From assembly GCA_001598975.1 (NCBI GenBank), contig BBXU01001727.1:1-53893 (forward strand): a stretch of DNA of 53,893 nt, in the 5' to 3' direction. The notes below the pieces were generated by a model. It worked only from the letters and a program-made list of their open reading frames with translations. It searched no databases and was not told the DNA's origin. Below are positions 6,524 through 18,727 of this stretch, in pieces; positions within the stretch are counted from its first letter, which is position 1; each line of letters opens with the position of its first letter. The position numbers and the translations under genes are program-made. This DNA comes from Parachlorella kessleri (lineage: Eukaryota > Chlorophyta > Trebouxiophyceae > Chlorellales > Chlorellaceae).

Positions 6524-9500
6524 ATGTCTGACAAGGACCTCCGTGTGTGGGTAGAGGACCAGCTCTACGCACTGCTAGGCAAGTTGCTTCATGTGCATCT
6601 CAGTCCTGCCTCGGTACCTGCCCCCCCCTGCTCGCCACCAGCGTGGTCTAGTTAGAGACCATTTGTTTGGGTTGCAGGGTTCGCGGAGAGGGCTCTGGTG
6701 GACTACTGCATCGCGCTTGGGAAAAGAGCAGGCAGTGCAACCAGCCTCACTTCCAGTCTTGAAGGCCAGGTGTGCAGAGCACACTCAAAGCCCGCTTCTT
6801 GCACTGTCCAGTTTATGAGCTGCATGAGGACTGGCTGATGCACGCTTCCTAGGCAACCTACAGGGACTTGAGATGGAAACGCACATGACAGGGAGGAGCC
6901 AGATAGCAGTTTGCTGGGTGTCAGCTGCTCAAGGAGCGGACGGAGTCAGAGAGGAGGGAACAAGCTGCAGGAATTTGGAAACCCCAGGCGCAATAACCAG
7001 CAGCTGTGGTGGAGTGCAGGGCCTTCCAGCCTCCTCTGAGACGCGCCGCTTTGCCCAGGACCTGATCAGCCGCCTCTCCCGCAACGGCGCCGCTGCAGCA
7101 GGAACAGCAGCACAGTCTTCAGCAGCCAAGGCGCAGGAGCGCGCGGCAGCAGCATTTGTGCGGCAGAATCGGCAGTACGGCTTGCTCCTAGATGATGAGG
7201 ATGAGGAGAATGGCGACCTGCAGGGTCAGGCGGGGCCGGGACCCCCAACAGCAGCAGCAACGGGAGCTACTGGGCACACAGGGCCAGGCGCAGCTCTGCC
7301 GCCCAGCTCTCAGCGGACTGCTGGGGCGACAAACGGGAAGGGCTCAAAAGCACACCTTCGGCGCAGCAAGGTGCGACTCCATACCATATCGTTGAACTTT
7401 TAGGCAGATATGTCATTCGGCAGGCTCCGTGTTATGCCTGCGCAATGTAGCTGGGAAAGGGGGCATGCACCATGCTGCCGCGTTCCTTACACGAGCTAAA
7501 TCTTGCTGTCAGTGCTGCGGCAGGGCCCTGGTTGGCAACAAGCAAACTCGCCTTTCAGGGTTTCTGCCTGTGTCCATGCGCGCAGGAAGAGTTAGAGGGT
7601 GAAGACGCGACAGTAGTGAAGCGCAAGTCACGGAAACGAGCCTGGGAAGAAGACGAGGATGCAGGCAAGCTAACCTCTCTGGGAAGGTTTGTTTTTCAGA
7701 GTGGCACAGCCGGCTGAGATGGTCTGTTCCTCACTGAGCATGTATCAGTGACCCACCTGCCGAGGCTGCTCCAGCCCGGCGGGCGCGAGGAGGAGGCAGC
7801 CTTTCTGCGTCTGCGCCTTGTCACTGGGCTGGCACGGCGTCTGAATTGATGTACCCCAACCGCTGGCTTTGAGAGGGAACAGCCTGAAGCTGCTGCTTAT
7901 CGACGAGCCAGGGAGGAAAGTGGCGTTCTGGCCTTGGTTTACAAGGCTCGCAAAGCATACCATGGTGTGTATGCTGACTGGTGTGTGCAGAGGACCCTGA
8001 GGCTGCAGGTGCTCGACGAGCGGCGGAGGAATTTGGCGTTTTTCCCCTTAATTTACAGGGCTCGCCCAGCATAACATGGTTGTGTGTGGGTGCAGAGGAT
8101 CCCGAGGCTGCAGCTGCTCGACGAGCGGCGGAGGAAAGGGAGCGGGACCGGCAGGAGAAGGAGGAGTTTGAGAAGCGGCTTAAGGAGAAGGATGAGGTGG
8201 GTGGCAATGGCGGCCTATTCGTAGAAGCTCGATCCATGCAGAAGGTCTTTTGTACGTCTTCTATCAGCCTAAGTGGCTTCTCGCCTGCACATCTAGCCAT
8301 GCACCCAGCTAATGGGTTTGCTGCCTCGGTCAGGGATGAGAGGCGGGCCGATGCAGGAGAAGAATGTGAGTGAAAAAAATTGTGTGCCATGCGTGGTTTC
8401 ACCTTACAAGTGCATTGCACACATCGTTGTCACACTGACAGCTACTATGTTCAAGGTGGTGGTGGCTTTGACGCTGACGGAAGAGAGGAACGCGGCCACA
8501 TGGGACTCGCGAGGTTGGCCAAAGCTTCTACCCATAGAGAAAGTGCGATAGCTGCAAATGTGTGGGGTCGTCTTTACAGGTCCAGATTTGGACGGCTGCT
8601 GGAGCACAGGTTCAGCAAGGCCTCATTTGTGGATGGCATCCCCTCTGATTAAGATTGAATGCACCGGTGTCCATGCAGGCCAAGACCCGTAAGCTGGCAG
8701 AGCGCAAGGTCAGCAAGGCCATGTTGACTAAAGGTTGGTGTGCCGGTAGTCATGCAGGCCAAGACCCGTAAGCTGGCAGAGCGCAAGGTCAGCAAGGCCA
8801 TGTTGACTAATGGTTGGTGTACTGGTAGTCATGCAGGCCAAGACCCGTAAGCTGGCAGAGCGCAAGGTCAGCAAGGCCATGTTGACTAATGGTTGGTGTA
8901 CTGGTAGTCATGCAGGCCAAGACCCGTAAGCTGGCAGAGCGCAAGGTCAGCAAGGCGGAGCTGGAAGAGATGGAGCGGCGGCGGAGAGCTGAGGAGGCGG
9001 AGGACCGGGGGAATGTCATGCGAGACCTCAGGTAGAGGTAGAGGCAGAGGTAGAGGTAGAGGTAGTGGGGAAATGTCATGCGAGACCTCAGGTAGAGGCA
9101 GAGGTAGAGGTAGAGGTAGTGGGGAAATGTCGTGCAAGACCTCAGGTATGTGACCCTTGTCATCGAGAGTCTTGTACACCCTCCACTGGACTCCGCATGT
9201 CTGTGCTCTCCTTAGTTGGGCCTAGCACTAGTACCATTGTGTGACAGCATGTGAGCATTGCGCTCCGCGTTGCCTGCAGGGACATTTCCCGCCAGGAGTA
9301 CCTTGGCAAGCGCGAGCAGCAGAAGCTGGACGAGATGAAGGAAGCGCTGGAAGACGAGAAGTACCTCTTCCAGGTGGGAGGGTTGCCCATGCAAATAATA
9401 AAATAAAATAAATAATGAATAAATATTTAATAATTGAAACAGATGCCCCGGCCTCAACGGTACAGCCGTAGCCGTGCCTTGAGTGGTGCCCTGGGAGAAG

Positions 9501-18500: not shown

Positions 18501-18727
18501 AGACGGTGCACATCCACCCCAGCAGCGGGCTGGCAGAGGCGCTGCCTCGGTGGGTGGTGTACCACGAGCTGGTGCTGACAACCAAGGAGTATATGCGGGT
18601 GGTGTCTGAGATGAAGCCGGAGTGGCTCGTGGAGATCGCGCCCCACTACTACAGCAAAAAGGAGATTATGGAACAGGCGGCCAAGAAGCTGCCCAAGGCA
18701 TTGGGCAAGAAGGCTGAGGCCAGCTAG
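6524..18727 (+). CDS. DHX16: Pre-mRNA splicing DEAH-box ATPase/helicase DHX16 (Prp2)
   Basis: The gene has 24 exons and encodes 1,100 residues. Exons: 6524-6578, 6678-6769, 7020-7370, 7586-7664, 8096-8196, 8916-9031, 9280-9373, 9798-9885, 10399-10620, 11128-11198, 11534-11655, 11912-12122, 12446-12561, 12916-13083, 13443-13620, 14238-14408, 14770-14878, 15257-15339, 15836-15941, 16373-16447, 16802-16879, 17369-17571, 18039-18227, 18503-18727. All phases close. The N-terminus ([14 protein letters not shown]) matches the PWI-like start of DHX16/MEE29, and a charged, Arg/Glu-rich region follows. The helicase core has GETGSGKT (481-488), [19 protein letters not shown] (578-581), SAT (610-612), [22 protein letters not shown] and QRAGRAGR (779-786). 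The winged-helix, ratchet and OB regions follow and end with [12 protein letters not shown]. The family remodels the activated spliceosome before the first splicing step. Three introns use GC donors, and several exon edges are tandemly duplicated. Confidence 0.95.
7749..8196 (+). repeat. Degenerate tandem copies of the EDPEAA exon edge in DHX16 intron 4
   Basis: The real exon begins at 8096 after an AG acceptor and encodes [14 protein letters not shown]. Recognisable copies of its start occur upstream near 7749, 7878 and 7990, increasingly degraded with distance, at spacings of about 129, 112 and 106 bases. The copy at 7990 keeps its AG acceptor and the frame of [14 protein letters not shown]. 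Confidence 0.85.
8679..8970 (+). repeat. 79-bp tandem repeat carrying an exon start and acceptor (about 3.6 copies)
   Basis: Copies begin after the same ATGCAG acceptor at 8679, 8758, 8837 and 8916, an exact 79-base period. Each begins with codons for [14 protein letters not shown]. Only the last copy continues into the helicase exon ([16 protein letters not shown]). The first three diverge after the lysine-rich segment into MLTK or MLTN and then reach a GTTGGTG sequence. The copies are almost identical, so the expansion is recent. Confidence 0.93.
9012..9148 (+). repeat. Triplicated donor edge of the MRDLR exon with GGTAGA microrepeats
   Basis: The exon end encoding VMRDLR, with its AG|GT donor at 9031, is repeated with donors near 9091 and 9146. 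The copies are separated by runs of GGTAGA and GGCAGA hexamers. The third copy has mutations (cgtgcaagacc) and a GTATGT donor. Confidence 0.9.
9390..9440. repeat. AT-rich simple repeat in DHX16 intron 7
   Basis: A run of AATAA/TAAAT units spans about 50 bases, in sharp contrast to the GC-rich surroundings. It lies wholly in the intron after the exon ending at 9373. Confidence 0.8.
9900..10045. repeat. Intronic imperfect tandem repeat (CTGCCTGAGGCAGGCCTGGC units)
   Basis: Three related units of about 45-60 bases contain TGCCTGAGGC, GGCCTG and GGCTGCTATAGAG words. They occupy the start of the intron after the exon ending at 9885. I see no coding function. Confidence 0.7.
10596..10845 (+). repeat. 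Duplicated exon 9 donor edge with intervening G-rich tract
   Basis: The exon end at 10596-10620, encoding the AKDRKAKG edge, is copied at 10768-10792 with one main change, 172 bases downstream. The word GCATGGGTGGCGGGG follows both copies. Between them is a G-rich, C-poor tract (about 10621-10720) with many GGG and GGGG runs and quadruplex-forming potential on the transcribed RNA. The copied donor, GTGAGT, is closer to consensus than the used donor, GTGGGT. Confidence 0.88.
12681..12930 (+). repeat. Duplicated intron segment and acceptor before the DEAH exon
   Basis: Two copies of a segment starting GTGGGCTGCA (12681 and 12808) lie in the intron before the DEAH exon. The acceptor edge GCAGCTG(C/T)ATGATGGTGG occurs at 12794 and again at the true site, 12912. 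The upstream copy would read SCMMVG and then soon a stop, so it can only be a decoy or a nonsense splice. Confidence 0.85.
13591..13745 (+). repeat. Duplicated donor edge plus CTAGT repeats and hairpin in DHX16 intron 15
   Basis: The exon end encoding [12 protein letters not shown], followed by GTTAGTCTAGTCTAG, is duplicated at 13681-13733 (EGCEELLSR-like, with GTTGGTCTAGTCTAG). An 8-bp inverted repeat (AACAGCGT and ACGCTGTT, 13639-13664) with a 10-base loop lies between. GGTCAACCTAC near 13647 recurs inverted near 13739. Confidence 0.85.
14540..14568. repeat. CTAGT/CTAGA simple repeat
   Basis: A run of CTAGTCTAGACTAGACTAG lies in the intron after the exon ending at 14408. Related GACTAG/CTAGTC runs occur at 13623-13640, 13713-13733, 23666-23678, 30744-30768 and 36524-36563. 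Confidence 0.8.

Follow-up and report, generated by a model that had tools for sequence, protein, structure and literature searches.

The question raised by this locus is why one gene should hold, in its introns, so many copies of its own exon edges. The gene encodes a DHX16/Prp2-type DEAH RNA helicase (24 exons, 1100-residue product) and lies at 6524-18727 (+) of a 53,893-nt stretch of DNA from the green alga Parachlorella kessleri, here called the window, which is one entire contig (BBXU01001727.1, C957) of the 1642-contig, 50.9 Mb assembly GCA_001598975.1. A preliminary description of this sequence had reported at least six separate sets in which an exon edge, together with its splice site, is duplicated in the adjoining intron; all six were recovered at the places given, as direct repeats, tandem arrays and edge alignments, while the number itself turned out to be an undercount, since testing every edge adds those at 17571 and 18503 and, weakly, that at 12561. 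The data point, with a probability that we put at roughly three in four, to recurrent local tandem duplications, of which those straddling a single junction survive because the extra copy falls in the intron.

Exon edges duplicated into adjacent introns

In the edge test, the 60 exonic nucleotides next to each edge were aligned by Smith-Waterman with the adjacent intron, the expectation being derived from the introns of other genes; introns longer than 5000 nt, introns containing N and exons shorter than 30 nt were dropped. Curated edges were used for DHX16, whose 24 exons were placed by eye, and the same model supplies the exon edges of all the sets described here. Eight of the 46 edges score at least 32 (0.01 expected), namely the acceptors at 8096, 8916 and 18503 and the donors at 9031, 10620, 12561, 13620 and 17571, and 15 of 46 score at least 24 (0.95 expected); the acceptor at 12916, belonging to set 5, reaches 24 from exon sequence alone and 36 when the intron part is included. 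At the threshold of 32, the internal controls gave 1/968 for non-adjacent pairs, 0/44 for the intron on the exon's other side and 0/46 for the reverse-complemented adjacent intron, so that the signal is confined to the adjacent intron in direct orientation; comparison of the edges with the reverse-complemented adjacent intron revealed no inverted duplication at a score of at least 28. With the edges of our own gene finder the figure for DHX16 is 8/48, one of them on a predicted mini-exon. The self-alignment against shuffled controls that had been proposed as a check, carried out on DHX16 and on sampled genes, leads to the same result: an unguided gapped scan of DHX16 yields 14 groups scoring at least 32, nine touching an exon edge and five intron-only (two of the latter being parts of the set 4 and set 5 units), with no exon-to-exon group among the 14, while 10 shuffles yielded no more than one group each. 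Chance as the source of the matches is excluded by the shuffles, the introns of other genes and the internal controls.

The alignments cross the junction from exon into intron, with the additional copy on the intron side, and they reach 8-28 nt into the intron for sets 1-6 and 8 nt for set 8; set 7 matches over 11 intron nucleotides, beyond a gap of 6 nt, and the weak pair at 12561 over only 2. In the DHX16 sets the copies are tandem and direct and carry exon sequence, a splice site and intron sequence, which makes them boundary-crossing tandem genomic duplications, and the origin first proposed for them, local tandem duplication of segments with splice sites, agrees with matches that cross junctions and are adjacent and direct only. 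Overall, the offsets range from 54 to 172 bp and the arrays reach about four copies.

The gene model shows zero substitutions with respect to the NCBI P. kessleri protein N2152v2_002750 (hereafter P0001), which is encoded on a 664 kb contig, and the two agree at the tested edges except for one additional mini-exon at set 2. P0001 differs at three places, with 12 residues fewer at exon 1, 4 more at the GC donor of exon 14, and the set 2 peptide present twice. Six other algal homologues share 74-83% identity with the DHX16 product in an alignment that spans most of the duplicated edges; exon 5 begins, and exon 9 ends, within or next to variable stretches with gaps, and at the end of exon 22 two residues are missing from one homologue. 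GC donors occur in introns 1, 4 and 14, i.e., in 3 of 23 introns, and in 34 of 343 predicted introns elsewhere, a share that would be high if the predictions hold, the gene finder having learned GC donors from DHX16. No second close copy of DHX16 was found in the assembly by a protein search of the same genome.

The individual duplications

All the sets lie on the plus strand. Set 1 (7760-8136) concerns the acceptor edge of exon 5, used at 8096, with copies at 7981-8031 (92%) and 7868-7918 (63%) and a possible further copy at 7760-7785 (77% over 26 nt), spaced by 105-113 bp. Set 2 (8663-8956), at the acceptor edge of exon 6, used at 8916, comprises 3.7 copies of a 79-bp unit that are 97% alike, and set 3 (9007-9148), at the donor edge of the same exon, used after 9031, comprises three copies spaced by 60 and 54 bp, with donors after 9031 (GTAGAG, 4.3 bits), 9091 (GTAGAG, 4.3) and 9145 (GTATGT, 9.8). 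In set 4 (10596-10874) the donor edge of exon 9, used after 10620, has a copy at 10768-10810 with a donor after 10792 (offset 172), and the tail of the unit is repeated at 10731-10749/10856-10874. Set 5 (12680-12929), at the acceptor edge of exon 14, is a duplication where it had been described, now specified as an acceptor-edge pair (copy acceptor 12798, used 12916; offsets 117-127 bp) adjoined by a weak donor-edge pair (12514-12682), in which the donor edge of exon 13 (12514-12563), used after 12561, matches an intron copy at 12633-12682 (67% over 48 nt, offset 119) with a score of 32, the best of 100 controls being 33. Set 6 (13589-13749) pairs the donor edge of exon 15, used after 13620, with a copy at 13678-13728 whose donor lies after 13709 (offset 89). 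The two sets added here are set 7 (17507-17690), where the donor edge of exon 22 (17507-17553), used after 17571, has a copy at 17626-17672 (72%, offset 119), and set 8 (18384-18542), where the acceptor edge of exon 24 (18495-18542), used at 18503, has a copy at 18384-18431 (75%, offset 111) whose acceptor AG has been lost (AA). Intron 8 contains tandem duplications without an exon edge (9900-10051, +; offsets 102 and 34), which are the same process as the edge sets minus the exon edge.

Identity declines from 97% in the set 2 array to 63-75% in the oldest set 1 copy, the weak pair and sets 7 and 8, and splice signals range from intact to lost; with copies 63-100% alike, the earlier proposal of separate events of different age is supported. 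The same range bears on the possibility that the repeats are an artefact of a 454 assembly. The genome report describes a draft of strain NIES-2152 with 1643 contigs >10 kb, 454 reads and GeneMark-ES gene calls (PMC4724957), and the assembly studied here is most likely that 454/Newbler draft; however, substitutions separate the copies in every set, down to 63-75% identity, and P0001, on its 664 kb contig, contains one set 2 copy, which makes this explanation extremely improbable.

Four minor candidates with scores of 25-29 were left uncounted (donor 8196/8340-8376, donor 9885/10061-10086, acceptor 10399/10283-10316 and acceptor 11534/11416-11454). Two others were rejected, the acceptor at 15836 (score 28) resembling a GCT repeat and the donor pair 7664/7903-7918 (score 24) being probably due to chance. 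A dispersed or introner element was rejected for the region 8500-9200, which matches only itself in the 50.9 Mb assembly, without the scattered near-identical copies of such elements.

Splice-site strength of the copies

Splice sites were scored with weights taken from 343 introns predicted in other genes. The sites used in DHX16 have medians of 7.8 bits (donors) and 9.3 bits (acceptors), and most copies retain good splice-site scores. The decoy acceptor of set 1 (before 7991) reaches 8.8 bits compared with 9.7 at the used site, the oldest scored copy falling to -1.9; those of set 2 reach 7.7-9.5 (used, 8.1), that of set 5 10.0 (used, 9.5), and the decoy donors of set 4, the weak pair and set 6 reach 11.2, 10.2 and 8.4 (used, 9.9, 7.8 and 9.7, respectively). 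The decayed copies of sets 7 and 8 score 1.1 (donor) and -6.8 bits (acceptor). A full-length frame with decoy use is obtained from the copy sites alone only in sets 1 and 2, set 4 needing a second, cryptic acceptor; this fits copies handled as intron.

These scores could also be read as a sign that the decoys are kept as poison splice sites through which DHX16, a spliceosomal ATPase, would tune its own expression by unproductive splicing, as the decoys of sets 3, 4 and 5 and of the weak pair outscore the used site and their use gives early stops. Nevertheless, in sets 7 and 8 the splice sites of the copies are gone, as is expected of neutral relicts, and genes of other function show the same events, so that such a role appears very improbable.

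Set 2 and the question of intron gain

The preliminary description had suggested intron remodelling or gain. Remodelling is borne out: lengthened introns and decoy splice sites are demonstrated in DHX16, and most sets only extend a pre-existing intron because the duplicated segment contains intron sequence. Gain is a candidate only, and set 2 would be its sole real candidate, on the strength of a mini-exon in the annotated protein. Each 79-bp unit contains an acceptor, a 30-nt segment coding for a 10-residue peptide and an internal donor, AAG|GTCAGC (8.2 bits), which also occurs inside the genuine exon 6; a 30-nt mini-exon plus a 49-nt intron equals one unit, and the possible mini-exons lie at 8679-8708, 8758-8787 and 8837-8866 (+), with 49-nt gaps between them.

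According to an alternative in which intron gain is caught in action, boundary-crossing or AGGT-containing tandem duplications would create introns, set 2 giving up to three 30-nt mini-exons with 49-nt introns and set 3 AG|GT-bounded mini-introns of 60 and 54 nt. The frame is kept with any single mini-exon or with all three, the copy acceptors and the internal donor of set 2 score 7.7-9.5 and 8.2 bits (medians of used sites, 9.3 and 7.8, respectively), and, among the 120 homologues listed, the peptide pattern occurs once in 18, is absent in 101 and occurs twice only in P0001. A precedent is provided by the potato RdRp gene, for which intron gain through a tandem duplication crossing an intron-exon boundary has been reported (Ma, Lan and Niu 2016, PMC4974935); there, as in set 2, the 3' end of an intron and the 5' part of the next exon are duplicated and a new 5' splice site is recruited from the exon. 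The potato intron, however, is backed by transcripts and outgroups, whereas set 2 is known from sequence and one annotated protein. Moreover, the P0001 model departs from its homologues elsewhere (the 12 residues absent near the start and the 4 added at the GC donor), an intron of 49 nt would be a short one, and the mini-exon is also predicted, from sequence alone, by the gene finder, whose DHX16 seed did not contain it, so that its presence in P0001 was not accepted as proof of use. Intron gain in progress is in our view a tentative possibility, rather on the unlikely side.

Occurrence in other genes

The sample consisted of 20 stretches (183.8 kb), which together with the window amount to 237.7 kb, with genes predicted throughout. 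Gene models other than DHX16 were predicted by our own gene finder, for which DHX16 served as the seed and the 238 kb as material for self-training; it recovers 44 of the 46 edges of DHX16, its own seed, and joins neighbouring genes, so that edge counts outside DHX16 are counts of predicted edges. Outside DHX16, 5 of 690 edges score at least 32 (0.38 expected; DHX16 against these, Fisher P 1.3e-7). Local non-simple duplication clusters, counted after low-complexity pairs were removed (705 segments reduced to 142; such pairs were removed likewise in the gapped scan and in the list of recent repeats), number 12 in DHX16, 53 in the 20 stretches and 14 in the rest of the window (DHX16 against the 20 stretches, Poisson P 3e-4). 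DHX16 having been chosen for its edge duplications, these P values show where it stands among the genes sampled and are no measure of a discovery rate: it is an extreme gene, not a typical one, and most sampled genes contain few such duplications. Strong edge events (score of at least 45, a cut set after the results were seen) number three in the 20 stretches (L013, L014 and L018), or four with the G-rich L021, which, scaled by 50.9 Mb/183.8 kb from these very few counts, roughly corresponds to 800-1100 genome-wide.

Four further DEAH genes, each in part, were found by a protein search of the genome, picked by homology and not by repeats. Among their 76 predicted edges four score at least 32 (0.06 expected), all within the 20 edges of one gene identified by homology as DHX35-like; no P. 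kessleri DHX35 protein was among the 120 matches listed. Two of these edges (4943 and 5050) come from an exon prediction that falls on one of the copies. The gene has a four-copy acceptor array at 5407, two of whose three extra copies include the pyrimidine tract; acceptor 2197 is duplicated at an offset of 105, and weaker pairs, scored on exon sequence, occur at donor 5570 (score 31, offset ~154) and acceptor 6127 (score 28, offset ~117). On the three other DEAH contigs 0 of 53 edges reach 32, and none reaches 26 (C589, 17 edges; C1344, 16, of which 4 are from an unrelated minus-strand prediction; C492, 20), and the remaining 3 of the 76, from a minus-strand prediction on C149, include none of at least 32. 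With two of five DEAH helicases affected, three not, and unrelated genes hit too, the spliceosomal role of the host gene is probably a coincidence, as had been supposed. One such gene lies in the window itself, where a SKP1-like exon (named by eye) at 53224-53313 (-) is duplicated at both edges, acceptor and donor, the copies lying in the introns on either side (offsets 86 and 83).

A perfect 152-bp tandem duplication (155/155 nt) is found at L005:7288-7594, from which duplication seems to be recent as well as old. Among nine recent tandem repeats, the ends of four two-copy cases share 1-5 nt (5 in set 3; 3, 1 and 3 in the others), two are short of a full unit and three longer arrays are unreadable for end overlap; the overlaps are compatible with short microhomology, the numbers being too small for more.

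Origin and placement of the duplications

Under the explanation that we favour, recurrent local tandem duplication, short duplications of about 50-170 bp would arise repeatedly in DHX16 through errors of DNA synthesis or repair. Those within an exon would alter a conserved protein and be removed, whereas one straddling a single junction would be silent if the spliceosome stays with the outer copy (for donors the one upstream, for acceptors the one downstream); the inner copy would then turn into intron and decay. Introns would lengthen in this way and come to contain decoy sites and remnants of exon edges of every age, and occasionally a usable decoy might become a mini-exon or a new short intron, as perhaps in set 2. 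This explanation is favoured by the intron-only duplications at 9900-10051, by the lack of exon-to-exon groups in DHX16 and by the same pattern in the DHX35-like gene and a few other predicted genes.

Several results weigh against it. In the gapped scan of 47 other predicted genes (168.6 kb), 44 groups score at least 32, 17 of them edge, 6 intron-only and 21 exon-to-exon, several of the last being strong (47 to 120 in L004, L009, L012 and L018), and purging of coding-sequence duplications is consequently not general; many of these exon-to-exon groups look like coding repeats. The heavy load in DHX16 and in the DHX35-like gene is left unexplained. In set 3, the frame requires that exon 6 end at the first GTAGAG, the weakest donor of the gene, which must beat the strong third-copy decoy, extension of the exon to 9091 or 9145 leading to a stop at residue 266. 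Since every set 3 copy ends in AG|GT, stepwise splicing from the weak to the strong donor offers a way out; the intron may be removed in this manner, and the layout would allow a stwintron or recursive splicing. Finally, with uniform placement and survival of mRNA-neutral duplications only, 34% would be expected to straddle an edge, while 9 of 10 DHX16 events with a unit of at least 50 bp do so (P 0.0004, rising to 0.003-0.012 on the assumption that copies at edges can be detected for 1.5-2 times as long); counting two short intron-only events as well gives 9 of 12 at edges (P 0.0014 to 0.04). This excess hints at more than a neutral filter, though in a gene selected for the feature.

Such an excess would be expected if duplication were targeted to splice junctions, for instance by R-loops or breaks at exon edges, instead of being uniform along introns, and the nine edge events against one intron-only event in DHX16, together with the 17 edge against 6 intron-only groups in other sampled genes, point in that direction. 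Against targeting, besides the way in which DHX16 was selected, many weak groups in other genes may be chance, and the strong groups elsewhere (5 edge, or 6 with the G-rich one, against 2 intron-only) are compatible with uniform placement and easier detection of edge copies; we regard targeting as quite unlikely. A broader proposal would combine several of these elements: junction duplication clustered by gene, continuing, partly edge-targeted and now yielding mini-exons and introns, with DHX16 and the DHX35-like gene showing every stage from the 97% array, one mini-exon of which would be incorporated, to relicts whose sites are gone, and set 3 spliced stepwise. Taken as a whole, it seems unlikely.

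Other features of the window

Two near-identical leucine-rich-repeat genes lie in inverted orientation at 35063-38650 (+) and 45462-49183 (-), while a third copy at 24655-28399 (+) has diverged further and that at 19711-23430 (+) is more distant; between the inverted pair is an open frame for a reverse transcriptase of the non-LTR (LINE) type, at 39322-40590 (-). A predicted gene at 29227-33325 (+), with an SPX-like start and a RING-like end, resembles plant NLA proteins. All these genes were named by eye. A perfect two-copy 42-bp tandem repeat lies outside the predicted genes at 43483-43567.

Relation to known systems and significance

The process is already known from potato, fission yeast and human, and the noteworthy part is its density and mix of ages in DHX16, which, with at least eight events in one gene at both donor and acceptor edges, differs from the potato RdRp case. 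In human genes, internal tandem repeats at exon-intron boundaries, the position seen in DHX16, alter splicing and intron structure (PMC2812944); their units average 30 bp and they occur in genes of recent segmental duplications, in contrast to the offsets of 54-172 bp, the lack of a second close gene copy and the strongly decayed members of DHX16. Intron gains by tandem duplication have been reviewed (188 cases), together with the AGGT tandem genomic duplication model (PMC3443670), of which cases have been described in fission yeast (PMC3629103). Set 3 resembles this model in having AG|GT in every repeat copy, but in the model an exonic segment is duplicated and an intron arises from nothing, whereas in set 3 the exon was already followed by an intron. 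For the [D] stwintrons of Lipomyces, a donor duplication of 4-7 nt has been proposed (PMC7138796), which, as in the donor sets of DHX16, leaves a single intron with two 5' splice sites that could be used; entire exon edges are duplicated in DHX16, where stepwise splicing is only inferred. No report of splice-junction duplication in Parachlorella was found among the open-access papers listed, subscription papers being outside the scope of the search.

How introns originate and grow has mostly been deduced from isolated, ancient examples. With at least eight junction duplications of graded age, in a genome that a rough count based on few events would credit with hundreds more, DHX16 would let the frequency of each fate of such copies, as silent sequence, alternative exon or intron, be measured, and would also show how the spliceosome picks between identical neighbouring sites.

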